NCBI GenBank assembly: GCA_025355855.1
Contig: JANXYU010000006.1
Span: 1-32,447, forward strand
DNA from: Actinomycetota bacterium
Lineage (GTDB): Bacteria; Actinomycetota; JAHEXW01
Direction of reading: 5' to 3'
Length of the DNA: 32,447 bases
Shown here: one piece after another, positions 8,946 to 32,447 of the stretch
Position numbering within the stretch: the stretch's first letter is position 1
Layout of the letters: each line of letters begins with the position of its first letter
Notes under the pieces: model-generated
Told to the model about the DNA's origin: nothing
Database searches by the model: none
What the model saw: the letters and a program-made list of their open reading frames with translations, nothing else
Translations under genes and position numbers: made by a program

Positions 8946-10337
8946 ATGAGAGAGGATAGCGCTAGTCGTAACTTCATGGTTACAGCGTCAGTTTGGCTTG
9001 TATTCGGCGTGTTAATGGGCCTGACGCTGGCAATCGAATTTGTTTTTCCCGATCTTTTTAAAGGCACGTCCTGGCTGGTTTTTAGCCGTCTGAGGCAAGC
9101 GCACGTCAATACCGTGATGTTTGCCTGGCTGTCAGGCGGGATGATGGGCTTGATGCTATATATCGTTCCGCGTTTGACCGCGCGACGGCTTTATAGCGAG
9201 CTACTGGGCAACATCTGTGTAGTCCTTTGGAATATTGCTTTGATATGGGGAGTAATCGCTCTATTGGTCGGTCAAAGCCAAGGTCGAGAGTACGCGGAAC
9301 TGATATTTCCCGTCGACGTCGGCATCATGCTGGTCCTGCTCCTTAACATGTTTAACGTCTATATGACCATTGCCAAAAGAGTCGAGAAGAAACTGTACGT
9401 CTCTCTTTGGTATATTACCGGAACCGTTATCTGGATGCCGATGCTCTATTTCATCGGCAATGTCATGTGGCACCCGGCCACTGGGGGTTTGACCGGGATC
9501 AACGATTCGATCTTTAACTGGTTTTATGGTCATAACGTTCTTGGTCTGTGGTTCACGACAGGGTTACTCGCCGTGGCTTACTATATCGTCCCGCGTGAAA
9601 CCCATACGCCTATTTATAGCCACCTGGTTTCTCTGTTCGGCTTCTGGGGCATAGCTTTTTTCTATACCGGCGTCGGCGGTCATCACCTGTTATGGGCGCC
9701 GATACCTTATTGGGTCAAGACGATCGCGGTGGGCGATAGCATCGGCATGATTATTCCTGTCGCCGCCATTATGCTCAATTTCGGCATGACAATGCGGGGC
9801 AACTGGAACCGATTTTCCTCGAGTATTCCGCTGCGTTATGTTTTTACGGGAATCGTGGCTTATGTCATCGTTTCTTTCCAGGGTTCTCATGAAGCATTGC
9901 GCGCCATGAACGAGCTGACGCACTTCACCCAATATGTCGGCGGGCACGCTCATTTGTCGCTGCTCTTTTTCGCCGCCTCGATCGTCATCGGCGGGATGTA
10001 TTACGCCATTCCGCGCATCTGCAAGTGTGAACTTTACAGTGACGGCATTGCAAACACACAATACGCCATCTATGTCGTGGGCTTTACGTTTCTATTTTTG
10101 GGCTTCTTGCTGACAGGAATCGTGCAAGGTACCGATTGGGTTCACGTCGGCCTGCCGGTTTGGACGGTACTCCCCGGTCTTCGCCCCTTTATGGCGTTGC
10201 GGGTTGTCGGGGGCGCCTTGCTGGTGATTAGCTTCATCATGTTTACGTATAACATTTTGGCAACAGTAATAAAGAGCCGTCCTATTCAAGGTCCGGGCGC
10301 CCTGGTCCCCTCCGAACAAGAAAGGAGGCCACGCTAA
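8946..10337 (+). CDS. ccoN: cbb3-type cytochrome c oxidase subunit I (CcoN)
   Basis: The catalytic haem-copper subunit, 463 residues with about 12 membrane helices, reducing O2 to water and pumping protons. The metal-ligand histidines are in place: RLRQAHVN (low-spin haem, helix 2), NWFYGHNVLG and GVGGHHLLW (CuB ligands), and GGHAHLSLLFF (high-spin b3 and second low-spin haem ligand). The short N-terminus and lack of extra helices fit CcoN rather than A-type oxidases. The start has an AAAGG-type site about 8 bases upstream and lies behind two leader hairpins. The stop codon is directly followed by the ATG of the cytochrome c subunit, so the two are co-translated. cbb3 enzymes usually have high O2 affinity, suiting microaerobic life. 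Confidence 0.96.
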   Translation: MREDSASRNFMVTASVWLVFGVLMGLTLAIEFVFPDLFKGTSWLVFSRLRQAHVNTVMFAWLSGGMMGLMLYIVPRLTARRLYSELLGNICVVLWNIALIWGVIALLVGQSQGREYAELIFPVDVGIMLVLLLNMFNVYMTIAKRVEKKLYVSLWYITGTVIWMPMLYFIGNVMWHPATGGLTGINDSIFNWFYGHNVLGLWFTTGLLAVAYYIVPRETHTPIYSHLVSLFGFWGIAFFYTGVGGHHLLWAPIPYWVKTIAVGDSIGMIIPVAAIMLNFGMTMRGNWNRFSSSIPLRYVFTGIVAYVIVSFQGSHEALRAMNELTHFTQYVGGHAHLSLLFFAASIVIGGMYYAIPRICKCELYSDGIANTQYAIYVVGFTFLFLGFLLTGIVQGTDWVHVGLPVWTVLPGLRPFMALRVVGGALLVISFIMFTYNILATVIKSRPIQGPGALVPSEQERRPR

Positions 10338-12359
10338 ATGAGAATCACATTTCGCGTTATTCTGGTTGGCGCAGTAGCCGTCTTTCTCGCCGTAGTAACG
10401 GTAGTCGCGTTCGTGCCTGCGCTGATCTGGAAGCCGGCCAGGACGGTTGTCGCTCACCCGTATACGGCGCAACAGGAACATGGTCGCGAGTTGTTTTATA
10501 AAAATGGCTGCCTTTATTGCCACTCGCAATACGTGCGCGACGACGATACCGGTGATGGAAATAAGGTTTCGGCCGGAGGCGATTACGTTTTCGATAACCC
10601 GATGACGCTGGGGTCTGAAAGAACCGGCCCGGACCTCACTTATATCGGTCGCAAACGAGGTGAGGCCTGGGACATCGCTCATTACAAAGACCCCCGCCGC
10701 TTGTCACCGTTATCCATCATGCCTAGCTTTAAGTTTCTGTCCGAGCAGGAGCTGAAGGATTTGACCGCGTATATCTTCAACCTGGGTAACCGAGTGGCGA
10801 TGGAGCGGATGATAATCCCGCCTATCACATATAAATACAGAACGACGTCTTTAGCAATCCCCACGATGACCTTGACTGATCCAGACGCCGCGCCCCAGGG
10901 CTGGGAAGCCTGGAACGCGGCCGGGCTGCAGGAAGGCAAGCTTCTATACGTAGAGCGCTGCCTGACTTGCCATGGCTGCGCCGGCAACGGCCAGGGAACG
11001 TACGCCGGCACCCTGGTCGTCACCCCGGCCAACTTTAAAGATCAACCGATCCGGTCCATGCCGGACGACCAATGGTACTGGCATGTATCCGAAGGCATTC
11101 AGGGAACTGTCATGCCGACCTGGAAGACAACATTGTCAGTTAAACAACGCTGGCATGTTATCCGTTACGTCCAGCAGATCTTCGCTTGGCCGCATGAAAG
11201 AGACCCCATCGAGGGCCGCCCACCCGGGTCGTACGCGAATCTGACCAATCCAGTCAAACTAACGGTGGACGAGCTGGAGCGTGTCAAGAGTATTTGGACG
11301 CGCGAATGCCTGCCGTGCCACGCAGCGGCGGGTTCGGGAGACGGCGCTTACGGGGACAAATTGGAGCCCCTGCCGTCCGATTTCCGCGACAAAGGCCATT
11401 ACGGGACGTTGGATAACCCTATCTACACAGATTCCGATTACTTTTGGCGAATAAGTGAGGGCTTGCCCTGGGCCGCGATGCCGGCCTGGAAATCGCAATA
11501 TTCCACTACCGACCGATGGGGGCTGGTACATTACATAAGGGTCAACTTTACCCAAACGGAGGCACGACCCGAGCGCCCTCGTCCTAATGATCAGGTCTAT
11601 CCTTCTTTCTACCTGGCTCAAAAAACATTCCCTGCGGCTTCATTCGCCCGCGGCCAGCGTATCTATATCAATGACTGCGCCAATTGTCACGGCCTAAGCG
11701 GCGAGGGCGAGGGCTGGGATGGCGCCTACTTGGATGTTTTGCCGGCCGATTTCACATACGGGAAAGCTAAAGAAACCGACCCGTCTAAGCTCTACGCGAT
11801 GACAGTCTTCGGTGTTCAGAATTCAGCTATGCCTAGCTGGTCGGAGCAGTTGCCGGATGAGCAGTTATGGGACGTAGTCACATACATTAACAAGGCTTTT
11901 CAAAACGGCGGCGGCGTCAAGAAGAGTCAGTTCAACTCGGGCAAGATCGCCGCGACCACCATTACGCTTAGCGAGGCGGATTGGACGAAAGAAGGCCACG
12001 TGATTTCAGCCGACAACGGTGCCGCCGTATACGCGAACTATTGCGCGCTGTGCCACGGAACCACAGGTAATGGGAACGGTTACAGCGGCGGCTTCCTGCC
12101 CGGCGGCCCCCCGGCAGCCTTCAATCCAGCGATGACCCAACAGTACGCTTTCTGGCGGATCTGGTACGGAGTGCCAAACTCCGTGATGCCGCCCTTCTAC
12201 CTGATGCTCGCCGAATCTGATATTTGGGATGTCGTTACCTACTCGATCGGCGTGGCGAATGGTACGCCCGTCGGGAACGCCGCCAACGCCCCGACCCAAC
12301 CCGTTTACGGGGCGTTGCCGACTGGCACTCTGCCGATAGGTTTAGGAGGCGGTCGCTGA
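10338..12359 (+). CDS. ccoO: CcoO fused to four additional cytochrome c domains (pentahaem)
   Basis: A 673-residue membrane-anchored c-type cytochrome. Residues ~5-31 form the anchor; residues ~40-155 are a recognisable CcoO domain (CLYCHSQYVR at 58, then SERTGPDLTYIG and a SIMPSF Met ligand). Four further monohaem class I domains follow, with CXXCH at 208 (CLTCH), 324 (CLPCH), 447 (CANCH) and 569 (CALCH), each followed ~50-60 residues later by a Met-Pro axial ligand (TVMPTW, AAMPAW, SAMPSW, SVMPPF). Normal CcoO is a ~200-residue monohaem protein and CcoP a dihaem one, so this chain appears to combine and exceed both electron-entry roles. It begins one base after ccoN; the terminal TGATG overlaps ccoS. 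Confidence 0.95.
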   Translation: MRITFRVILVGAVAVFLAVVTVVAFVPALIWKPARTVVAHPYTAQQEHGRELFYKNGCLYCHSQYVRDDDTGDGNKVSAGGDYVFDNPMTLGSERTGPDLTYIGRKRGEAWDIAHYKDPRRLSPLSIMPSFKFLSEQELKDLTAYIFNLGNRVAMERMIIPPITYKYRTTSLAIPTMTLTDPDAAPQGWEAWNAAGLQEGKLLYVERCLTCHGCAGNGQGTYAGTLVVTPANFKDQPIRSMPDDQWYWHVSEGIQGTVMPTWKTTLSVKQRWHVIRYVQQIFAWPHERDPIEGRPPGSYANLTNPVKLTVDELERVKSIWTRECLPCHAAAGSGDGAYGDKLEPLPSDFRDKGHYGTLDNPIYTDSDYFWRISEGLPWAAMPAWKSQYSTTDRWGLVHYIRVNFTQTEARPERPRPNDQVYPSFYLAQKTFPAASFARGQRIYINDCANCHGLSGEGEGWDGAYLDVLPADFTYGKAKETDPSKLYAMTVFGVQNSAMPSWSEQLPDEQLWDVVTYINKAFQNGGGVKKSQFNSGKIAATTITLSEADWTKEGHVISADNGAAVYANYCALCHGTTGNGNGYSGGFLPGGPPAAFNPAMTQQYAFWRIWYGVPNSVMPPFYLMLAESDIWDVVTYSIGVANGTPVGNAANAPTQPVYGALPTGTLPIGLGGGR

Positions 12360-13209: not shown

Positions 13210-15606
13210 ATGGCCCGCAAAAGCGGGACATCCTCGGATCGGCCTCGCTGCGCACTCTGCGGCCACCTCATTTCCGGCGATCCGATTATAAAGAACATCG
13301 GTGGAAAATCGGTTTCTTTTGATTCCAAGGACCACGCCCGCATCTATAAGACCGCCTACGATAGCGGTCTTCTCGATGAGATATTGACGATGCCACCGCG
13401 CCAAAAAAGCAGTGCCATCTCCAGCTTGCAAAAGAAATCCACGGTCAATTTTGCTGTTGGCGGTTTGTATTGTGAAGGCTGCGCCACCACAGCCGAATCA
13501 GTTCTCAAAGCAACGCCCGGAGTCTCCGACGCCGCCGTCAGTTACGGGGCCGCACAGGGCCGAATCGAATATGACCCTGATCAGACCAACCCAGAAGAAT
13601 TGATGCATAAGATGCACGCGCTAGGTTACCACACCCATATGCCCGCCATCGACGAAGGCGAGGCCGCCGCTCGGGCACGAACGGAGAGCATACTCATTAA
13701 GCTCATTGTCGCTATCGCCTTCGGCATGCAAATCGAAATCCTCTATCTTACGAACCTGTATCCATATTACGCTCAGGGCACTTTTGGCACTCCGGCCGTC
13801 AAAGGCATCGAAACAATCGTTTTGTTCCTTAGCCTCCCTGTCTTTTTTTATAGCGGCAGCATTTTTTTAAGAGGCGCGTGGGAAGAACTAAAAGCCAGAA
13901 CCGTGAACATGAACACGTTGGTTGGCATCGGAATCACAGCGTCATTCGGGTATAGCGTTTATATGACTCTATTTGGCCGCGGCCCAGTGTTTTTTGATTC
14001 GACCGTTCTGATCATCACGTTTGTGTCCATCGGCCGTTATTTGGAATCAATCGGGGGTGATGACGCACGCCGCGCGGTACGGTCCTTGCTTGACATCAAT
14101 CCCCGGACAGCCAAGGTCCTGCATGCCGGCAGCCCTATGGAGATGCCGGTGGCAACACTCAAGCCGGGAGACGTGGTCCTGGTCGACTTCGGTGATTTGA
14201 TACCGGCCGATGCGACCGTTACAGAGGGCGACGCTCTGGTGAATGAATCCCTGGTAACGGGTGAATCAACGCCGGTTCCAAAAACAAAGGGCGACGCTGT
14301 TCTCGCCGGATCGGCAGTCTCGTCCGGTAACATTACGGCGCGCGTCGATAAACCGTTTGACGACAGCCGGCTGGCGGAAATGCGAGAAGTCGTCAAACAC
14401 ACCTTGATGACCAAACCGCCGCTGCAGCTCCTGGCTGATCGGGCCGCTGCTTGGTTGACATACGCCATTCTTGGCGTCTCTGCTCTGACCTTTGCGGGGT
14501 GGCTGGCGACCGGTCATTCGCTCGGCGCTGGAATTCTCGCCGGAGTCGCCGTCTTGGTAGTCGCTTGCCCGTGCGCTCTTGGCATCGCGACCCCGTTGGC
14601 GATTACAGTTGCTCTCGGCCGCGCTGTTGGCGCCGGCGTGGCCGTGCGTAATCCTAACGCGCTGGAAACCGCCGGCCGGATCGACCATATGGTGTTTGAC
14701 AAAACAGGCACCCTGACCATCGGAAAGCCGACGGTGACCAGCGTTCGCCCGGCTCATAGCCAGACATCACGCGATAAATTCATCTGTCTGGCCGCAGCAG
14801 TAGAACAGTTCTCCGCTCATCCCGTCGGTCAAGCGATTGCTGCGGCCTGCTCGCACCCTCCGGCGGCGCATGCTTTCACTGCCTTAGCGGGCGTGGGGGG
14901 CCGAGCGGTGTTGGCTGACGGCACCACAATTACCGTGGGCGCGCAACATCTAGTGCCTGCCGCTGATCTTTCGCCTTTGGCCGCGCAAGCCGACCAGGAG
15001 CGCGCCTCAGGCGCCAGCGTCGTTTGGGTTCAAGCAGATGAATCAGTGATGGGTTACATCGTTTTATCTGACCCGGTCGACCCGCAAGCCGGCCAGACAA
15101 TCAAGGATCTTGCCCTTGCCGGAATCGATTCGGAGATACTCAGCGGAGACTCGGCCGCTACCGTCCAATCGTTAGCCAAAAAAGTAAGTATTTCCGATTA
15201 TACGGGGACTTTATCTCCCGAGGCGAAGGCAGCGATTATCAAAGAAAGACAGCAAGCAAATCAAAAGGTAGGCATGGTCGGTGACGGGGCCAACGATGCT
15301 CCGGCTCTGGCTCAAGCCGACGTCAGCTTTACGGTCGCGTCCGGCACCACGATTGCCGGCGAGACTTCGGACATATTGCTTGTTCGAGATGATCTCCGCC
15401 TCGCCGCTTGGTTCATCAGGCTCAGCCGGGCAACCGACGGTGTTATTAAACAGAATCTTGGCTGGGCGATGGTTTACAACTCTGTTGCGGTCCCATTAGC
15501 GGCGTTTGGAATAATCAGACCAGCCATCGCCGCGATCGCCATGGCGGCCAGCAGTCTGATTGTTGTCATGAATTCATTGAGGTTGAAACGACTGAGGTTG
15601 GGCTAG
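13210..15606 (+). CDS. P1B-type copper-transporting ATPase, CcoI/CopA-like
   Basis: A 798-residue P1B ATPase. Order: an N-terminal Cys motif CALCG (14-18) followed by a short TRASH/YHS-like segment; an HMA domain with CEGC at 88-91; TGES at 350; CPC at 453-455 in the sixth core helix; DKTGT with phosphorylated Asp497; an HPVGQAI segment; and GDGANDAP around 691. The last two helices carry YN (MVYNSVAVP) and MAASS, the fingerprint of Cu+-selective P1B-1 pumps. The position at the end of the cbb3 operon suggests a CcoI/FixI role, exporting Cu+ for assembly of the oxidase CuB centre rather than simple detoxification. It starts 3 bases after the ABM-like gene. Confidence 0.93.
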   Translation: MARKSGTSSDRPRCALCGHLISGDPIIKNIGGKSVSFDSKDHARIYKTAYDSGLLDEILTMPPRQKSSAISSLQKKSTVNFAVGGLYCEGCATTAESVLKATPGVSDAAVSYGAAQGRIEYDPDQTNPEELMHKMHALGYHTHMPAIDEGEAAARARTESILIKLIVAIAFGMQIEILYLTNLYPYYAQGTFGTPAVKGIETIVLFLSLPVFFYSGSIFLRGAWEELKARTVNMNTLVGIGITASFGYSVYMTLFGRGPVFFDSTVLIITFVSIGRYLESIGGDDARRAVRSLLDINPRTAKVLHAGSPMEMPVATLKPGDVVLVDFGDLIPADATVTEGDALVNESLVTGESTPVPKTKGDAVLAGSAVSSGNITARVDKPFDDSRLAEMREVVKHTLMTKPPLQLLADRAAAWLTYAILGVSALTFAGWLATGHSLGAGILAGVAVLVVACPCALGIATPLAITVALGRAVGAGVAVRNPNALETAGRIDHMVFDKTGTLTIGKPTVTSVRPAHSQTSRDKFICLAAAVEQFSAHPVGQAIAAACSHPPAAHAFTALAGVGGRAVLADGTTITVGAQHLVPAADLSPLAAQADQERASGASVVWVQADESVMGYIVLSDPVDPQAGQTIKDLALAGIDSEILSGDSAATVQSLAKKVSISDYTGTLSPEAKAAIIKERQQANQKVGMVGDGANDAPALAQADVSFTVASGTTIAGETSDILLVRDDLRLAAWFIRLSRATDGVIKQNLGWAMVYNSVAVPLAAFGIIRPAIAAIAMAASSLIVVMNSLRLKRLRLG

Positions 15607-15617
15607 CTTTAACGCGC

Positions 15618-15923
15618 CTAGGGCAGTATCCGAACGTGAAAGAGATACGCGCCCAGAGCGATTGTGGCGTGGGCAAGACCGATGTAGAAAATCAACATTC
15701 CGTTACGACGGTGCCATTTAAAATCTATCGGCAGCCACTTCTTGGCGACAGAGACTTGGAAATTGACTAACACTAAGAGCAGGATACCCAGATAGGCATA
15801 GATAGCCAGGCCCGATACGCTGGGTATTCCAAACGTCGCAATCAAGACTGCCACGATTATTACTAGAAGTAGTCCCGCAATTACGTGAGTCGGTATTCCC
15901 AATACTTTAGGCCGAATCGCCAT
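15618..15923 (-). CDS. Small three-helix membrane protein
   Basis: A 101-residue protein with three predicted membrane segments (~12-33, ~36-58, ~75-97). Between helices 2 and 3 is a conserved-looking FKWHRRNGMLIFY, followed by LAHATIALGAYLFH; the paired His residues could in principle bind haem as in small cytochrome b-type proteins, but I do not recognise the family. The ATG at 15923 has a GGGGAGA site 3 bases upstream. It converges on the P1B ATPase with an 11-base gap and no visible terminator between them. Confidence 0.7.
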   Translation of the reverse strand: MAIRPKVLGIPTHVIAGLLLVIIVAVLIATFGIPSVSGLAIYAYLGILLLVLVNFQVSVAKKWLPIDFKWHRRNGMLIFYIGLAHATIALGAYLFHVRILP

Positions 15924-15959
15924 CTTCTCCCCTTTTCGTCCGCCTAACCCCTACTTATA

Positions 15960-15983
15960 TAGAAAGATTAATAGAAAGATTAA
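15960..15983. repeat. Perfect 12-bp tandem direct repeat
   Basis: TAGAAAGATTAA occurs twice back to back (15960-15971 and 15972-15983) in the 290-base gap between the divergent three-helix protein gene and the second P1B ATPase unit. The placement suggests tandem binding sites for a regulator; chance duplication is possible. Confidence 0.7.
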
Positions 15984-16066
15984 CCATCTAGCGACCTTAT
16001 CTCAAGTTTCCCATTCCCTTAACCGATAGTTATAGTAACAAGCCAGCGCCTAAAAAGGACACAAAC

Positions 16067-16201
16067 ATGGTTCGCCAACTGCACCGGACATACTACAGAA
16101 ACAAAAAACGAGTCAGGGATATGAGGTACGCTCTTGTGCTTTCCCTGGCGGTTTTTGTCTTCTCCCCCGGTTGGGTCTATATTCAGGGCTGGCATTTCTA
16201 G
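16067..16201 (+). CDS. Possible 44-residue single-span protein upstream of the CSC-type ATPase
   Basis: An ATG at 16067 with a well-placed AAAGGA site (about 7 bases away) opens a 44-codon frame ending in TAG at 16199-16201. The product has a very basic N-terminus (QLHRTYYRNKKRVRDMR) and one hydrophobic segment (YALVLSLAVFVFSPGWVYI), so it would insert as a small inner membrane protein. The stop lies 13 bases before the ATG of the P1B ATPase, whose own ribosome binding site is weak, which would fit translational coupling. Small membrane partners of P1B ATPases are known (mycobacterial PacL proteins), but I see no sequence match. It may not be expressed. Confidence 0.4.
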   Translation: MVRQLHRTYYRNKKRVRDMRYALVLSLAVFVFSPGWVYIQGWHF

Positions 16202-16214
16202 ATATACTGACAGT

Positions 16215-18164
16215 ATGTCTGAACCCCATGACGACCACCACAATCACGATTTCGGTTTAGCTTGCGACGACTGCGCGGGCCCTGTTGACGATGACACGAT
16301 CGCTCTGGCGTGGTACCGTCAGCCAAAGATCGTTCTCCTGGCCGTCGCGGCCTTGCTTACGGCTGTCGGCTTTCTCGCAGCGATTGTCGCGCCGGGATGG
16401 CCGGCTACCGCAGTATTCCTCGCGGCCGTTCTTTGCGGCGGTTACTACCCGGCTTTGGCGGCTTGGGAGTCTCTTCTAAACCTCACGCTTACAATTAATA
16501 GCCTGCTGGTCGCCGCGACCGCCGGCGCGATTGCGCTGAATCTGTGGGGCGAAGCAGCGACTCTGGTCGTTGTCTTCTCACTGGGCGGCATACTGGAGAC
16601 GTTCGCGGTCGACCGAGCGCGCAATTCTCTGGAAGAGCTGATACGCTTGGCGCCGCCAACCGCGCGCGTCATTCGTCAGGGCGTAGAGAATGTCGTGCCC
16701 GTCGCCCTGGTCAAAATGGGCGAATTCATCTTGGTTAAGCCAGGCGACCAGATCCCCCTGGACGGTACGGTATCGGCGGGGTTGTCCACGGTGAATCAAG
16801 CTACAATCACAGGCGAATCGATTCCGGCTTTCAAAAAACCCGGGGACGGCGTCTACGCGGGCACCGTTAACCTCAACGGCTCGTTGGAAGTAAAGGTTAC
16901 GGCACGGGCTCGCGACACAACGTTAGCTAAGATCATCCACGCCGTCGAGGAGCATCAAGCCCGCAAATCCTCATACCAGAGATTCAGCGAGCGGTTCGGC
17001 GCCATCTATACCCCGGCCTTATTTGGAGTCGCGTTAGGAGTCATGCTACTACCGCCACTAATGGGCGGGCCCTGGCGAGATTGGTTCTACCGAGGACTGG
17101 TCGTCCTGGTCGTTTCTTGTTCCTGCGGCATCGCTTTATCGGTCCCTGTCGCGATCGTCGCGGCAATCGCCCGAGCCGCTCGGCAAGGCGTTCTCATCAA
17201 AGGAGGCGCCTATGTTGAGCTGCTCGGACGGATCAAGATTATCGTCTTTGACAAAACCGGTACCCTGACGTATGGCGATCCGGCGGTTGTCGACATTCTG
17301 ACCTTTGGAGATTTTTCAGAAAACAAGGTGCTCGAAGTGGCGGCGGCGGTTGAACGTAAGAGCGGACATCCTTTGGCAAGCGCCGTGATCACCGCAGCGG
17401 AAGCCCGCAAACTGCCGAAACGGCGTGTGTTGGATTTCCGGGCCCTCCCGGGGCTGGGCGCCTACGGTCGGATCGGCCGTAACATTTACCATGTCGGGAA
17501 CCTCAAGTTGATTACGGCACATGATATCGTTACGGCGGAAGCCTCTCTGGGCGCCGCCGCGCTGGAAGCCGAGGGCAAATCACTCGTTTACGTAACCGAA
17601 AATGACCAGCTGGTCGGTTTGATTGCCATCGCCGACACGGTTCGCGAGACAGCCGCGGCCGCGCTCGCCGATCTCAAGCGATCCGGTATGCAGCGCTTAA
17701 TAATGCTGACCGGCGATAACGTTACTACCGCCTCAGCTATCGCCGCCCAGGTGGGCATAGACGAATATCGGGCGGATCTATTGCCAGAAGCAAAAGCAGC
17801 GGTCGTGGTGGCTCTGCAGGAGGAGTTTGGCCGGGCCGCCATGGTTGGAGACGGTATAAACGACACCCCGGCGCTGGCCGCCGCATCAGTAGGAGTTGCC
17901 ATGGGCGCGGCCGGCTCAGGCATAGCTGTTGAGACGGGAGACATCGTCCTGATGGCCGATGATCTCAGCAATCTGGCTTTCGCGGTACGCTTAAGCCGAC
18001 GAACCCGACGGATAATCGGCTTCAACATCGGAGCCGCTTTGACGATTGTATTAGTTCTCGTAACTCTGGCATTGCTGGGGCGGGTCCAATTGGTGCCGGG
18101 ACTTTTCATCAACGAAATGGGCGCCTTCCTGATAATCTTGAACAGCGTCAGGCTGCTGCGCTAA
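16215..18164 (+). CDS. P1B-type metal ATPase with CSC transmembrane motif and His-rich N-terminus
   Basis: A 649-residue heavy-metal ATPase. The N-terminus is metal-binding in character: HDDHHNHD at 5-12 and CDDC at 17-20, with no HMA domain. Core motifs are intact: TGES, phosphorylation site DKTGTLT at Asp346, HPLA, and MVGDGINDTPALA. In the sixth core helix the expected CPC reads CSC (302-304, VVSCSCGIALSVPVA), and the last helix carries NEMGAFLIILNSVRLL, with Glu where Zn/Cd pumps have Asp in DxG; the penultimate helix lacks the Lys of Zn pumps. The metal is therefore uncertain (Zn, Mn, Fe or Co rather than Cu). The start at 16215 is chosen over upstream in-frame 16134 because it gives the His-rich beginning and avoids the small ORF. 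Confidence 0.9.
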   Translation: MSEPHDDHHNHDFGLACDDCAGPVDDDTIALAWYRQPKIVLLAVAALLTAVGFLAAIVAPGWPATAVFLAAVLCGGYYPALAAWESLLNLTLTINSLLVAATAGAIALNLWGEAATLVVVFSLGGILETFAVDRARNSLEELIRLAPPTARVIRQGVENVVPVALVKMGEFILVKPGDQIPLDGTVSAGLSTVNQATITGESIPAFKKPGDGVYAGTVNLNGSLEVKVTARARDTTLAKIIHAVEEHQARKSSYQRFSERFGAIYTPALFGVALGVMLLPPLMGGPWRDWFYRGLVVLVVSCSCGIALSVPVAIVAAIARAARQGVLIKGGAYVELLGRIKIIVFDKTGTLTYGDPAVVDILTFGDFSENKVLEVAAAVERKSGHPLASAVITAAEARKLPKRRVLDFRALPGLGAYGRIGRNIYHVGNLKLITAHDIVTAEASLGAAALEAEGKSLVYVTENDQLVGLIAIADTVRETAAAALADLKRSGMQRLIMLTGDNVTTASAIAAQVGIDEYRADLLPEAKAAVVVALQEEFGRAAMVGDGINDTPALAAASVGVAMGAAGSGIAVETGDIVLMADDLSNLAFAVRLSRRTRRIIGFNIGAALTIVLVLVTLALLGRVQLVPGLFINEMGAFLIILNSVRLLR

Positions 18165-20298: not shown

Positions 20299-20781
20299 AT
20301 GGCGAGAGAATTAAACAAGAAAGCGGCAATGGTCGTTATGAGCGGCGACTTCGATAAGCTGTTCGGAGCGTTCATCATTGCGACCAGCGCCGCCGCTCAG
20401 GGCAACGAAGTTACCATGTTCTTTACTTTTTGGGGCCTTCGCGCCCTAAAAAAGAAGGTACCTACTGGCAAGAGCCTGTTCGGACGCATGGTCGGCATGA
20501 TGTACGGCGGAGACATCAACCGGGCGACGCCTAGCAAATTCAGTTTCTTCGGCATGGGCCGTTGGATGTTTAAGAAAATGATGAAGAACAAGAACGTCTC
20601 TTCCCTACCCGACCTGAGGCAATTGGCAATCGATCTCGGCGTTAAACTGTATGCCTGCCAAATGAGCATGGACGTCATGGAGATACCGCGAGAAGCTATG
20701 ATCGACGAGGTCGAGGCGTGTGTCGGAGGCGGTTTCTTTGTTGAGCAAGCCGCCAACGCCGATTTTACGCTATTCATTTAA
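20299..20781 (+). CDS. DsrE2-like sulfurtransferase family protein
   Basis: A 160-residue DsrE/F/H-superfamily protein of the DsrE2 type, often annotated as peroxiredoxin-family. The start KKAAMVVMSGDFDKLFGAFIIATSAAAQGNEVTMFFTFWGL is typical, and conserved Cys120 (LYACQMSMDVM) is the likely persulfide carrier, with a second Cys141 in VEACVGGGFF. A Met/Phe/Lys-rich hydrophobic insert (GMGRWMFKKMMKNK) may contact membrane. DsrE2 proteins pass sulfane sulfur to or from TusA, whose gene follows directly. The start has an AAGGAGG site. Part of the ArsR-DsrE2-TusA-cytochrome b-HdrD cluster. Confidence 0.9.
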   Translation: MARELNKKAAMVVMSGDFDKLFGAFIIATSAAAQGNEVTMFFTFWGLRALKKKVPTGKSLFGRMVGMMYGGDINRATPSKFSFFGMGRWMFKKMMKNKNVSSLPDLRQLAIDLGVKLYACQMSMDVMEIPREAMIDEVEACVGGGFFVEQAANADFTLFI

Positions 20782-21059: not shown

Positions 21060-21779
21060 ATGAATTGGTTTCAGTATGTTTTCGCCGGTTGGTTCGTCTA
21101 TATCGCGCTACTTGTCTTTATTGGCGGACTGATCTGGCAGGTCGTTAAGTGGCGCCGCGTCGCTAAGTCGAGAATCATTATGGGCATGTTCCCCAAGCCG
21201 GCTAACCTTGGCGCCAGATTCGCAAAGATGCTTAAAGACACGTTCTTCTTTCCCTGGGTGCTTGACTACAGCAAAAGCATCTGGCTGTTCGCGGGGGCGT
21301 TTCACCTGGCCGGACTGCTGATGTTTGTCGGGCACTTGCGGCTTATTCACGAATTCACCCCGCTGGTCTCGTGGCTTGGCGCGAACGGCATGGACCAATT
21401 CGCGTTCCTTACGGGCGGCGCCTTCGGGATCGTGTTAACAGTCGCGCTCATCTATCTATTGCTTCGCCGGTTCGGGACTCCCTACAAAGACCTTTCCGTA
21501 CCCGAGGATTATTTGTTGCTGATTCTCCTCTTACTGATTGTCACCATGGGTAATCATCTGCGTTTCTTCGGCACGGTACACGTAACCGATTACCGGGACT
21601 ACGTAATGAGTTTGCTCGCTTTCAAGCCGGCCTTCAATGCGGCAATACTGTCCTCGAACGTGCCATGGTCGCTAACGACTCACGTCATGCTGGCGTGCGC
21701 ATTCCTTATCTACTTCCCGTTCTCCAAGCTCGTCCATTCCATCGGCGCTTTCGCGTCTAACTTGGTTAGGAGTGAATGA
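21060..21779 (+). CDS. Membrane cytochrome b, NarI/DsrM/HdrE-like
   Basis: A 239-residue integral membrane protein with about five or six helices. Likely haem b ligands are the histidines in FHLAGLLMFVGHLRLIH, MGNHLRFFG and LTTHVMLACAFLIYFPFSKLVHSIG, the pattern of the NarI gamma subunit superfamily that also contains DsrM and HdrE. It would exchange electrons with menaquinone and pass them to the [4Fe-4S] protein encoded next. It starts 6 bases after tusA with no strong ribosome binding site, so translation is probably coupled. The stop is followed by the HdrD-like ATG after one base. Confidence 0.88.
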   Translation: MNWFQYVFAGWFVYIALLVFIGGLIWQVVKWRRVAKSRIIMGMFPKPANLGARFAKMLKDTFFFPWVLDYSKSIWLFAGAFHLAGLLMFVGHLRLIHEFTPLVSWLGANGMDQFAFLTGGAFGIVLTVALIYLLLRRFGTPYKDLSVPEDYLLLILLLLIVTMGNHLRFFGTVHVTDYRDYVMSLLAFKPAFNAAILSSNVPWSLTTHVMLACAFLIYFPFSKLVHSIGAFASNLVRSE

Positions 21780-21780
21780 C

Positions 21781-23058
21781 ATGACTCCTCAGGCCAACGC
21801 GAGGGCGGAACTTCTCGAGCTGATCAATAGCAAAATGAACCGCACCCTAAAGTACTACCTAGATACTTGCGTTCGCTGTGCCATCTGCAAGGACGCTTGT
21901 CACCAATACGTCGCTACGGGCGATGTACTATACCTTCCCGCTTACCGGGCGGAACTGATTCGGCGCATTTACAAGAAATACATGACCGGATCCGGGCGGC
22001 TTATGCCCAAACTATTCGAAGGGCGCGATCCGGAAGACGACGTTTTACTGGACGAGCTATACAAGACAACCTATGCCTGTACCAGCTGCCGCCGCTGCAT
22101 GTTTTGGTGCCCGTTCTCCATTGACACCTCGTGGGTGCTGGCAGTGGCCAAAGCACTGCTCCTGGCGACGGGCCGCGGCTCGGAAATCCTGACTCAGCTG
22201 GCCGATTCCGCCATTGATAAGGGCAAGAACATCGATCTTTATACCGGTGTCATTCGCGAGGTCTTGAAAGGCTCCGAGGAAGAAATGCGGCGGGTTGTTC
22301 AGGATCCGAACGCTGGTTTCGTTTATGACAAAAAGGGCGCCGACGTTCTCTATGTCGCTTTGGCAGGCACTCATACCATTCTGCCGGCCGCAATCATCTT
22401 CCATGAAGCCGGCGAGGACTGGACCTTATCATCCTTTGAGGGCAGCAATTACGGCTACTTCTTGGGCGACACGGTCAAGGCTAAGGAAATCGCTCAGCGA
22501 ATCGTCGATGAGGCGAAGAATTTGGGTGTAAAGGAGATCGTAATGAGCGAGTGCGGCCACGCCCACCGCGTCATGCGAGATTTCTATCGCATGTGGGCGA
22601 AAGAGGAGTTGCCGGCTCCGATGGTCAGCGTCCTAAGCAAAGTCGATGGCTACATCAAGGACGGGCGAATCACCGTGACTCCCGGTAAAATCACCGAGCC
22701 TGTCACTTATCATGACCCTTGCCAGATCGGCCGCAACTTCGGACTTTTTGAAGAACCGCGAAATATCATCCGCGCGACCTGTTCCGATTTCCGCGACATG
22801 ACACCGAACAGGCAAAAACAGTGGTGTTGCGGCGGTGGCGGAGGCTTGGTGGCCGAGACGGAATTCGATGACGTCCGCCTGAAAAGCGGCCGCCTAAAGG
22901 CCGACCAAATCAAAGCGACCGGCGCCAGCATCTTGGTTACCCCATGCGAGAACTGCCGACTCCAGATAGAGTCCTTAAACGACGAATATAACCTAGATAT
23001 CGAGGTCTCCGCTGTCTTAGACCTGGTCGTCAAGGCGTTGGTCACGAAATCCACCTAG
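21781..23058 (+). CDS. HdrD/DsrK-like iron-sulfur protein with CCG domains
   Basis: A 425-residue soluble protein. Two [4Fe-4S] motifs open it: CX2CX2CX3C at 30-40 (CVRCAICKDAC) and at 100-110 (CTSCRRCMFWC). Two CCG-type domains follow: SECGHAHRVM, YHDPCQIGR and WCCGGGGG (349-350), then TPCENCRLQ. These bind the noncubane cluster pair used by heterodisulfide reductase HdrB/D, or one in DsrK. With the cytochrome b it would form a quinone-linked thiol/disulfide or sulfur-carrier oxidoreductase. The ATG at 21781 with AGGAG eight bases upstream is favoured over GTG at 21772. Substrate is unknown; TusA- or DsrE-bound persulfide is a candidate from context. Confidence 0.9.
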   Translation: MTPQANARAELLELINSKMNRTLKYYLDTCVRCAICKDACHQYVATGDVLYLPAYRAELIRRIYKKYMTGSGRLMPKLFEGRDPEDDVLLDELYKTTYACTSCRRCMFWCPFSIDTSWVLAVAKALLLATGRGSEILTQLADSAIDKGKNIDLYTGVIREVLKGSEEEMRRVVQDPNAGFVYDKKGADVLYVALAGTHTILPAAIIFHEAGEDWTLSSFEGSNYGYFLGDTVKAKEIAQRIVDEAKNLGVKEIVMSECGHAHRVMRDFYRMWAKEELPAPMVSVLSKVDGYIKDGRITVTPGKITEPVTYHDPCQIGRNFGLFEEPRNIIRATCSDFRDMTPNRQKQWCCGGGGGLVAETEFDDVRLKSGRLKADQIKATGASILVTPCENCRLQIESLNDEYNLDIEVSAVLDLVVKALVTKST

Positions 23059-28433: not shown

Positions 28434-30062
28434 CTACTTGTTCCGGCGGTACCCGTTAGTAATCGGTAGGCGGCGATCCTTACCGAAAGCCTTGGCGGTA
28501 ATCTTGATGCCGGGCGGCGCCTGGCGGCGTTTATATTCGTTGCGGTCGATTAAGCGGGTGACATTGTCTACCGTGGCGCGAGGGTAACCCAACGCCTCGA
28601 TCTCATCCGGGCTAAGGTCTTGTTCGACATAGGCGTTGATTATCGGGTCAAGGATGTCGTAAGGCGGCAACGAGTCAGTATCCTTCTGGTCGGGACGAAG
28701 TTCGGCCGTTGGCGCCTTATTGATGACGTTGGCCGGCATTACGGGAGACACGGCGTTCCGAAAGTCGGCGAGTTTATAGACAAGGGTCTTCGGGACGTCC
28801 TTAATGACCTCGAAGCCCCCCGCCATGTCACCGTACAAAGTCGCGTACCCTACAGCCATTTCACTTTTGTTTCCCGTGGCCAAGACTATCCAATGAAATT
28901 TGTTTGCCAGGGCCATAAGCATTGTGCCTCTGATGCGCGCCTGGAGATTCTCTTCGGCCACATTAAAAGGCAGCGTACCGAAATAGGGGCGAAGCGTAGC
29001 CAGATAAGTTTCGAACACGTTATCTATATCAATAACTTTAAACTCTATTTTGAGCAGCGCAGCAGTCTCGGCGGCGTCTTCCCGACTGTCTTCGCTGGAA
29101 AATCGAGTCGGCATATAGACGGCCTTGACGTTGTCCGCGCCCACCGCGTCGACGGCTATGGCCGCTGCCAGCGCTGAATCGATCCCGCCGCTCATCCCCA
29201 GGACCGCCGTCGTGAACCCGTTTTTACTCATGTAGTCACGCGTTCCAAGAACCAGAGCGGCGTACACCTCAGCAGCTTCGCCCAAGGGCGTTGCGGGAGC
29301 GGTGATCGCCTCACCCGAGCCGGTAGACGCATCTATGTCGAAGACAAGCATGTCCTCCTTAAACTGCAGCCCTTGCGTCAGCACGCTGCCGTCCGGCCGC
29401 ACTACGATACTCTGGCCGTCAAAGACTAGCTCATCCTGTCCGCCGACTAGATTCACATAGGCCAACCAGTCGCCTGTCTCAATCGCCCGATCGCGCAACA
29501 TCAGCTCTCGCTCTCGTCCCTTCGCCATATGATATGGCGAAGCGTTAATGTTCAGAATCAGTTCGGCGCCTTGCTTGGCCGCTTTCCAGGCCGGCCCCTT
29601 GTCTTCCCAAATATCTTGACAGATGGTGATACCAATCTTCGTTCCATTGACTGTGAAGACGCCGCTGTCCTGCCCCGGCGCGAAGTAACGCTGCTCGTCA
29701 AAGACGCCGTAATTAGGCAAAGCCACCTTGCGATAGATATGTTTTATCTGCCCCCCGTGCAGCACCGCGGCGGAGTTGTATATCTTGCCGTCTTCCCCGG
29801 CTTCGGGGAAACCGACAACCGCGTAGATGTCACCCGTAGCCGAGGCTAAATCATGCAGCGCGGCCTGGCTGTCAAACAAAAATTGTGGCTGGTGGAGGAG
29901 GTCTTCCGGCGGATATCCGCAAATGGTCAGTTCTGGAAACACGGCAATATCAGCGCCGCTTTCGGCGGCGGCGGCGCAATGGACGAGGATGCGGGCGGCG
30001 TTGCCTTTCAGGTCGCCAACAACCGTATTAATCTGACACAAGGCGACTCGTAATAGCGCCAT
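28434..30062 (-). CDS. nadE: Glutamine-dependent NAD+ synthetase
   Basis: A 542-residue two-domain enzyme making NAD+ from deamido-NAD+, ATP and glutamine. Residues ~1-250 are a nitrilase-like glutaminase with the Glu-Lys-Cys triad visible in VFPELTICGYP, YRKVALPNYGVFDE and ITICQDIWED. Residues ~260-542 are the ATP-pyrophosphatase synthetase with the P-loop GMSGGIDSALAAA, followed by MPTRFSSEDS and the GNKSEMAVGYATLYGDMAGGF loop. Length and domain order match bacterial NadE of the glutamine type. The ATG starts 3 bases after the methyltransferase stop with no clear ribosome binding site, suggesting coupling. Confidence 0.97.
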   Translation of the reverse strand: MALLRVALCQINTVVGDLKGNAARILVHCAAAAESGADIAVFPELTICGYPPEDLLHQPQFLFDSQAALHDLASATGDIYAVVGFPEAGEDGKIYNSAAVLHGGQIKHIYRKVALPNYGVFDEQRYFAPGQDSGVFTVNGTKIGITICQDIWEDKGPAWKAAKQGAELILNINASPYHMAKGRERELMLRDRAIETGDWLAYVNLVGGQDELVFDGQSIVVRPDGSVLTQGLQFKEDMLVFDIDASTGSGEAITAPATPLGEAAEVYAALVLGTRDYMSKNGFTTAVLGMSGGIDSALAAAIAVDAVGADNVKAVYMPTRFSSEDSREDAAETAALLKIEFKVIDIDNVFETYLATLRPYFGTLPFNVAEENLQARIRGTMLMALANKFHWIVLATGNKSEMAVGYATLYGDMAGGFEVIKDVPKTLVYKLADFRNAVSPVMPANVINKAPTAELRPDQKDTDSLPPYDILDPIINAYVEQDLSPDEIEALGYPRATVDNVTRLIDRNEYKRRQAPPGIKITAKAFGKDRRLPITNGYRRNK

Positions 30063-30065
30063 GAT

Positions 30066-30629
30066 CTAAGTAAATACCGCTGTGTAGTGATATGGATAAA
30101 GGTCCGGCTGGTCAACCAGGCGGAAGCCGGCAAACACGATTGTCTCGATCGCCTCCGCTTGGGGGATTCGCTCAGCTAGGGGCGGACCGACTGGGGTTTC
30201 TTCCGCCTTCCAATCGACTATTACCAGACGACCGTTCGGTTTTATCAGGCGACGTAATTCCCAGCCCAGGACGCCCGCATCTGTTATCTCGTGCCAAACG
30301 TTTGCTATCAGGACAATGTCCGCCACCGCGTCGGACAAAGCGATTGTGGCTCCATCCGTAGCCAGTTCGGTAATGTTGGCTTGTCCCTGATCCGCCGCCT
30401 TGGCAGCCAAAAGATCGCGCATTCGCGGGCTGACGTCAACACCGATAACAGAACCACCCGAAAGTTTCTTGGCCAAAGGTAAGGCGAAGAACCCGGTGCC
30501 GGAGCCGACGTCGATGACTGTTTCGTCACCGCGCAACGTCAACCATTCAATCAAAAGGGCTGGATCTTCCCATTTGTACCGTTCCGGGTCGTCCAACCGG
30601 GCGTGGTGCTCAGGATTAAAGCGATGCAA
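30066..30629 (-). CDS. Class I SAM-dependent methyltransferase
   Basis: A 187-residue Rossmann-fold methyltransferase. Motif I is VIDVGSGTGFFALPLAKKL, the acidic ribose-binding residue follows in VIGVDVSPRM, and later motifs are IVLIANVWHEI and LRRLIKPNGRLVIVDWK. The start is a TTG at 30629 with a GGAGG site about 5 bases away. It overlaps the metallo-beta-lactamase gene by 14 bases and precedes nadE by 3, so the three form an operon. The UbiE/Methyltransf_11 class covers many substrates and the target is not known. Confidence 0.88.
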   Translation of the reverse strand: MHRFNPEHHARLDDPERYKWEDPALLIEWLTLRGDETVIDVGSGTGFFALPLAKKLSGGSVIGVDVSPRMRDLLAAKAADQGQANITELATDGATIALSDAVADIVLIANVWHEITDAGVLGWELRRLIKPNGRLVIVDWKAEETPVGPPLAERIPQAEAIETIVFAGFRLVDQPDLYPYHYTAVFT

Positions 30630-31535: not shown

Positions 31536-31570
31536 AAAACGCGAGACGCATAAATTACGTCTCGCGTTTT
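31536..31570. terminator. Intrinsic terminator after the CX3CH-repeat gene
   Basis: A 13-bp perfect stem, AAAACGCGAGACG (31536-31548) with CGTCTCGCGTTTT (31558-31570), encloses a 9-base loop. Both sides carry A/T runs, so on the minus strand it ends in a T6 tract typical of Rho-independent terminators. It lies 29 bases past the stop of the repeat-protein gene and just before the metallo-beta-lactamase start. Confidence 0.85.
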
Positions 31571-31599
31571 CGAGAAAAACCCTGACGTGCCGAGTGCGT

Positions 31600-32447
31600 C
31601 TAAACAAACACCGATCCCGTTAGACCCGCCAGGGATAAGGTGACCACAGGGTGCCCTTTAGGTAAGGGCAAGCTGCGTTGTCCATGACAACCAGCGCTGC
31701 ACAGAGTCGTCGGCGGCGGAGTTACAACCGGCGGCGGTGTTGGTGTCGGCGTGGGTGTCGGTGTCGGCGTTACGCCCGGAACCGCCGGATGGCCGGCCGG
31801 CAGCGGTAGGCTGCGCGGTACGTGGCAACCGGCGCTGCACGACGCCGGTGTCGGCGTTGGCGTTGGTGTCGGAGTTGGCGTCGGCACAGGTGTTCCTCCT
31901 ACGCTCGGGTGACCTGCCGGCAACGGTAAGCTGCGCGGCACGTGACAAGAAGCGCTGCATGACGCAGCCGGCGGCGGAGTCGATCCCCCGCCCCCGCCCG
32001 CCGGGGGTGCAACCGCTCCATACGGATGTCCCGGACCAGGTACGGCGTTGCGAGCCGCGTGACAGCCGGCGCTGCAATACGACGTTCCCGAACCGATACC
32101 GCCTGCCGCAGCCAAAGCGCCGTACGGATGCCCCGGACCGGGAGTCGCGCTTCGCGCTTCGTGACAACCGAAACTGCAATAACCGCCGCTGCCCTCACGC
32201 CTGGCACAGCCCCGTACGGATGTCCCGGACCCGGTGTTCCGGCCCTAAGCGCGTGGCAGCCGGCGCTGCAATAGGTGCCGAACGCCAGGCTGCCCCTTGA
32301 CGTGATCGCCGAGATACTGATATGCCAACCCGGCGGATCGTTCAGGGGCATTTTCGTGTGGCATTTAAGACACAAGCCCGCCGCCCGCGCGGTTTCAAGC
32401 GCGGACAACTGACCGCCCTTGGTGCGGGTATAGTATGTAAGGTCAGC
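31600..32447 (-). CDS. CX3CH-repeat (putative multihaem) protein, partial and frameshifted
   Basis: The frame enters from the right edge, so the N-terminus is outside the window. It contains one canonical CXXCH (CLKCHTK, about 32358-32372) and CSAGCHALRAGTPGPGHP, then loses frame. A second frame resumes the same repeat (CSFGCHEARSATPGPGHP) and runs to TAG at 31600-31602. Joined, there are six units of CS(A/F)(G/S)CHxxRxxxPxxGHP: three end in GPGHPYG, three in LPxGHP, the latter separated by Pro-Thr linkers. Each unit has a CX3CH and a second His about 13-15 residues later, as expected for bis-His haem c, although CX3CH is not the standard CXXCH. The frames meet between 32176 and 32244; one missing base would explain it. 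Either sequencing error or real gene damage. Confidence 0.7.
31736..31771 (-). repeat. Hexanucleotide-type repeat coding a Pro-Thr linker (first)
   Basis: Degenerate ggtgtc/ggcgtg units on the plus strand encode a (PT)n linker on the minus strand between the last two CX3CH units. Third positions vary, so selection on the protein repeat rather than recent slippage is likely. Confidence 0.7.
31846..31894 (-). repeat. Hexanucleotide-type repeat coding a Pro-Thr linker (second)
   Basis: A second run of ggtgtc/ggcgtt-like units encodes PVPTPTPTPTPTPT in front of a CX3CH unit on the minus strand. The unequal lengths of the two linkers show repeat expansion or contraction at this locus. Confidence 0.7.

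Follow-up and report, generated by a model that had tools for sequence, protein, structure and literature searches.

The closest described precedents for haem attachment at CX3CH come from cytochromes in which such a site occurs singly. In MmcA, a heptahaem cytochrome of Methanosarcina acetivorans, mass spectrometry located haem on CXXXCH and CXXXXCH (+615.17 Da per peptide), five of the seven sites being canonical and one CX3CH (PMC11024163). The Ccm machine of Methanosarcina has a CcmE with a CXXXY motif and lacks CcmH (PMC9084895). In the ImcH/CymA-type quinol oxidases, which are likewise multihaem cytochromes, a single CX3CH located beside a membrane helix and among CX2CH sites is counted as a haem site (PMC6295460).

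The machinery of attachment also varies. System I attaches haem to 12-residue CXXCH peptides, and in the E. coli system altered Cys spacing leads to aberrant products with extra sulfur (PMC3601427). System I* is a variant in which Cys replaces the haem-binding His of CcmE, most commonly as CPSKY, and in which CcmH is often absent and not obligatory; it has been reviewed for delta-Proteobacteria, Chloroflexi, Firmicutes and archaea (PMC3601427).

Two kinds of repeat family bear comparison with the protein described here. Paired_CXXCH_1 (PF09699, TIGR01905) resembles it through a weak, sub-cut-off match at the first site, but leaves the six modules unmatched, and the second CXXCH of the family is absent. 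PF09698 and TIGR01904, which describe Geobacter CxxxxCH...CXXCH repeat proteins, share with it tandem repeats of non-canonical Cys spacing and export; they differ in a spacing of four and in the pairing with CXXCH, and Pfam scans gave no such match here. Below we describe an actinobacterial protein with six CX3CH modules in tandem, which is probably an exported multihaem cytochrome.

RESULTS

Six CX3CH modules are encoded at the end of a contig

The window (the whole stretch analysed, 32,447 nucleotides) is one complete contig out of the 35 in a draft genome (1.34 Mb, 91% complete) from a groundwater actinobacterial lineage. Near the contig end, the original prediction had placed six CX3CH-x9-GHP modules and one CXXCH (CLKCH), with a Cys spacing of three in every repeat. 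Both the count and the spacing (six of six modules) were confirmed, on the minus strand, and mononucleotide shuffles of the stretch contained a mean of 0 such motifs compared to the 6 observed. The common motif proposed for all six, CS(A/F)(G/S)CHxxRxxxPxxGHP, holds for the Cys and His spacing, but its Pro position is matched in just three modules. Modules 1 to 3 have the form CSxGCHxxRxxxPGPGHPYG, and modules 4 to 6 the form CSA(G/S)CHxxRSLPLPxGHP. An invariant Gly-His-Pro after each CX3CH had also been proposed; G, H, and P are kept in all 12 modules of the two species of the genus, over which the invariant columns are C, S, C, H, R, G, H, and P. The coordinates are collected in Table 1.

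Table 1. Positions of the CX3CH-repeat gene, its modules and flanking elements in the window, and of two cytochrome-related loci elsewhere in the genome
Feature	Position	Strand	Remark
CX3CH-repeat protein gene	31600..32447	-	5' end lost at contig end; orthologue intact
Stop codon	31602-31600	-	
Site 1, canonical CXXCH (CLKCH)	32358..32372	-	followed by GWH, candidate distal His
Module 1, CSAGCHALRAGTPGPGHP	32217..32270	-	
Module 2, CSFGCHEARSATPGPGHP	32125..32178	-	
Module 3, CSAGCHAARNAVPGPGHP	32023..32076	-	
Module 4, CSASCHVPRSLPLPAGHP	31906..31959	-	
Module 5, CSAGCHVPRSLPLPAGHP	31786..31839	-	
Module 6, CSAGCHGQRSLPLPKGHP	31648..31701	-	
Pro-Thr linker, modules 4/5	31840..31905	-	
Longer linker, modules 5/6	31702-31785	-	
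One-base deletion relative to congener	32195..32196	-	between modules 1 and 2
Intrinsic-terminator-like inverted repeat, CGCGAGACG...CGTCTCGCG, then T-run	31539..31575	-	directly 3' of stop codon
Ccm cluster, System I* kind	G000:C8:4299-11212		adjoins NapC/NirT-like hexahaem cytochrome and haem biosynthesis genes
Giant putative surface multihaem protein	G000:C8:34571-56116		7,182 codons; orthologue on G001:C9, 7,162 codons

The downstream neighbours of the gene encode a metallo-beta-lactamase-fold protein, a methyltransferase, and NAD synthase, and the other flank, seen in the congener, carries a CvpA-family gene and a HAD gene. These are housekeeping genes, and no other cytochrome gene is adjacent; together with the terminator-like repeat at the 3' side, housekeeping neighbours on both sides suggest that the CX3CH-repeat gene stands alone.

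Owing to the contig end, about 44 N-terminal residues are absent from the window, and relative to the congener the copy has a one-base deletion, at about 32195/32196, that puts CLKCH and module 1 in one frame and modules 2 to 6 in another. The window's own gene might therefore be a fresh pseudogene with a real frameshift, from which only site 1 and module 1 would be made, a question that we kept separate from the function of the intact protein. We regard this as rather unlikely, since the frame after the deletion contains no stop codon, modules 2 to 6 bear the signature of purifying selection (dN 0.04, dS 1.8), the congener gene is intact, and the deletion sits right at a contig terminus of a 35-contig draft assembly, in which single-base errors occur. 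Programmed frameshifting was rejected because the congener has a single continuous frame.

The window also encodes several respiratory and metal-related proteins. At 8946-12359 (plus strand), a haem-copper oxidase subunit I is followed by a 673-amino-acid fused protein that joins a FixO/CcoO-like domain to further cytochrome c domains, with five CXXCH in all, and is an unusual oxidase subunit. Two metal P-type ATPase genes lie directly 3' of the oxidase genes and are followed by genes for superoxide dismutase and a ZIP transporter (13210-18164, plus strand). Farther along, genes for a nitrate-reductase-gamma-like subunit and a CCG/4Fe-4S protein form an HdrE/HdrD- or DsrMK-like pair (21060-23058, plus strand), with a DsrE-like gene (20299-20781) nearby.

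The intact orthologue has the residues for seven bis-His sites

In the congener, the orthologue (L008:10291-11247, minus strand) is intact, with CLKCH and all six modules in one continuous frame of 312 amino acids that begins at an ATG with GGAGG upstream. A basic N-terminus is followed by the hydrophobic stretch TIGLLVIIMIAAIVTFAG (a 19-residue helix of mean hydropathy 2.24), by site 1, CLKCHKQMPLNDPPGWH, and then by the six modules, the first three of type CSxGCHAARxxTPGPGHPYG and the last three of type CSA(G/S)CHxxRSLPLPxGHP. Gly/Ala or Pro/Thr linkers, whose lengths are not equal in the two species, separate the modules, the last of which lies near the C-terminus. The full N-terminus, where the original prediction had proposed to look for a signal, has a putative export helix: the basic n-region and hydrophobic helix predict an exported protein.

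All 14 Cys of the orthologue lie inside the seven CX2-3CH motifs (7 × 2). Its 15 His comprise 7 in these motifs, 7 at distal positions, and 1 at residue 3, and the distal His is offset by +12 at site 1 and by +11 in all six modules. Each site accordingly has one candidate distal axial ligand by prediction, with no spare His except the N-terminal one. This composition, two Cys and two His for each of the seven sites, is what seven bis-His haem c groups would require. The protein contains no Glu and 3 Asp (pI 9.8), and structure prediction without an alignment gave a mean pLDDT of 39, with only the N-terminal helix predicted confidently (high pLDDT).

The modules are conserved as protein

When the modules of the two species were compared, 57 of about 81 synonymous sites differed, as opposed to 12 of about 243 nonsynonymous sites. 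For the six modules this corresponds to a dS of ∼2.1, which is near saturation, and a dN of ∼0.05; at dS ∼2 versus dN ∼0.05, conservation of the protein is strong. The linkers vary more at nonsynonymous sites (dN 0.16) than the modules do (0.05). Most codons of the invariant residues C, S, C, H, R, G, H, and P vary, and within one gene modules of the same type differ mainly at synonymous sites. On these substitution patterns, the repeats are old and maintained at the protein level, not a recent expansion of DNA.

The repeat family appears confined to one genus

The full CX3CH-repeat protein was present in two of the three genomes of the class. Across 397 genomes of the phylum, the CX3CH-x9-GHP DNA pattern occurred six times in each of two species of the genus and elsewhere as three isolated single matches only, and the module profile, whose search within the phylum had been suggested at the outset, gave no repeated matches outside the genus of the window. 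Weak single-module profile matches in 18 other genomes were partial single stretches without repeats and were judged to be chance. A match in G049 was rejected because it was antisense and low-complexity and lay over amino-acid biosynthesis genes.

A wider scan of 84,980 species genomes used one strict pattern covering modules 1 to 3 only, and the congener (JAHEXW010000014.1, Actinomycetes bacterium isolate nzgw113) was the one genome in which this type occurred repeatedly. In the other 42 of its 43 stretches the motif stood alone, in many cases with an internal stop codon or within a very short frame, and these were discarded. No relative of the protein was found in plasmid, phage, and viral collections. 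As far as the searched collections go, the family thus appears private to one genus, for which our literature search found no publications.

Searches of Pfam, NCBIfam, PHROG, and PDB sequences gave no match above cut-off for the protein; the PDB search yielded no homologue with demonstrated haem, and no zinc-binding family in Pfam matched the modules. Doubled-CXXCH models scored 10 to 14 bits, over site 1 only, and Paired_CXXCH_1 missed its cut-offs (PF09699/TIGR01905; 13.6 bits versus 20.6, and 10.4 versus 25.2).

The genome is rich in cytochromes and encodes a Ccm set

CXXCH matched the DNA of the genome 255 times, compared to 73 times for the reversed control, and contig C8 holds 13 multi-CXXCH frames with 103 CXXCH sites within 80 kb. 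Judged by these counts, the genome is that of a multihaem specialist. CX3CH is not enriched beyond the CX3CH-repeat gene (77 matches genome-wide versus 64 in the control).

C8 also carries ccmE, ccmF, ccmB, ccmC, and an ABC ATPase gene in the ccmA position, so that a maturation system is encoded in the genome, as expected for the multihaem class. The CcmE (Pfam CcmE, 4e-25) contains CPSKY, in the context ...VTKCPSKYENQ..., and no match to CcmH (PF03918) was obtained in the 91%-complete assembly; ResB was also sought in the genome and not found. With CPSKY in CcmE and CcmH not found, the predicted set is System I*-like. It differs from the reviewed examples (PMC3601427) in its host, a genus whose congener record is filed as "Actinomycetes bacterium."

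A frame of 7,182 amino acids in the same genome, rich in CXXCH, contains one CX3CH (CAGVCH...CVTCHHPH) that is kept in both species and whose neighbours are CXXCH sites. This giant frame has extracellular-type repeat domains, with ten CXXCH and the one CX3CH near its C-terminal end. In the multihaem frame beside it, a canonical CXXCH is followed by an x9-GHP tail (CYKCHSVDYYGPGKGHP) in both species. Two further multihaem proteins (G000:C8:18966-20024 and 28845-30362) each have one CX4CH of the form CxxxNCH (CGDPNCH and CYQANCH).

DISCUSSION

The reading that best explains these observations is that the protein is probably an exported c-type cytochrome with seven bis-His sites and non-canonical attachment at CX3CH. 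The chain holds several CXnCH motifs, as multihaem cytochromes do (one CXXCH and six CX3CH), and each of the seven would bind one haem c through two thioether bonds. The proximal ligand would be the His of CX2-3CH, and the distal ligand the single His 11 to 12 residues farther on, within GHP in the modules and GWH at site 1. Linkers of Pro, Thr, and Gly would connect the haem modules, giving a flexible and highly basic chain, presumably of extended shape. The protein would be exported, either anchored in the membrane or secreted. Weighing against this reading are the absence of family and PDB matches above cut-off, the aberrant products that altered Cys spacing gives in the E. coli system (PMC3601427), the housekeeping neighbours of the gene, the absence of CX3CH enrichment in the rest of the genome, and an uninformative structure prediction.

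Attachment would fall to the System I*-type Ccm that the genome itself encodes, as a variant of this system attaches haem to CX3CH in Methanosarcina MmcA. System I requires little apart from the motif and works on 12-residue peptides (PMC3601427), which makes short modules along a flexible chain plausible as substrates. The likeness to MmcA extends to the seven sites, CXXXCH included, and to maturation with a CcmE-Cys and without CcmH; the archaeal protein differs in that neither tandem modules nor GHP tails are described for it (PMC11024163). The original prediction had set CX3CH apart from known cytochromes, which is too broad for a single site, as MmcA and ImcH (PMC11024163 and PMC6295460) provide precedents, but a repeated series of CX3CH is reported for neither. 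Its alternative of a multihaem or metal-binding protein now leans to the first, which the genomic context supports well through the Ccm genes, the abundance of cytochromes, and the CX3CH kept in the giant multihaem frame, with haem binding itself inferred from the motifs and a metal site kept as the rival.

That main rival takes the CX3CH-x10-H modules to be Cys2His2 sites for Zn, Cu, or Ni in an exported chain that buffers or senses metals, CLKCH providing a further site. It accounts for the ligand count equally well, since exactly two Cys and two His per module suit a tetrahedral metal site as well as they suit haem, but overall we consider it unlikely. Ligation of one tetrahedral metal by adjacent Cys and His would be unusual. 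The absence of CX3CH enrichment elsewhere in the genome is in its favour, but CLKCH has the classic form of a haem motif, of which this genome contains about a hundred, and the x9-GHP tail also trails a canonical CXXCH in a multihaem frame. Metal handling might be suggested by the ZIP transporter and by the pair of P-type ATPases encoded in the window, one of which contains a heavy-metal domain; however, these transporters are 12 to 19 kb away, and the ATPase genes come just after the oxidase genes and could serve the copper supply of the oxidase. It is very improbable that the modules are structural or wall-spacer repeats stapled by CX3C disulfides and devoid of cofactor, since this would suit the low-complexity Pro/Thr/Gly/Ala linkers, the pI, the absence of Glu, and the lack of a confident fold but would leave unexplained the His after the second Cys and the GHP His, both invariant in 12 of 12 modules.

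Returning to the cytochrome reading, we propose for the protein the likely role of a cell-surface electron shuttle, which would pass electrons between the organism's many multihaem cytochromes and its membrane respiratory chains, including the cytochrome oxidase encoded in the same window. A more specific form of the model resembles beads on a string: six autonomous CX3CH-x9-GHP haem modules of about 20 residues, each with its own axial ligands, would be joined by disordered Pro/Thr linkers, and System I* would use CX3CH as a regular substrate. We regard this form as possible, though somewhat doubtful. If it is true, the cytochrome would have an architecture that dispenses with a packed fold.

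If the haems are present, this would be, to our knowledge, the first cytochrome built mainly from CX3CH sites in minimal bis-ligand modules. Haem counting based on CXXCH would classify it as a one-haem protein and overlook six of the seven. It would also bring within experimental reach the long-standing question of why the maturation of cytochromes demands CXXCH, and that of whether a System I* with CcmE-Cys relaxes this rule, offering a clean system for the tolerance of the haem-attachment machinery toward non-standard sites. Being so short, the modules could be used as peptide substrates and as units from which flexible, haem-bearing wires are assembled.
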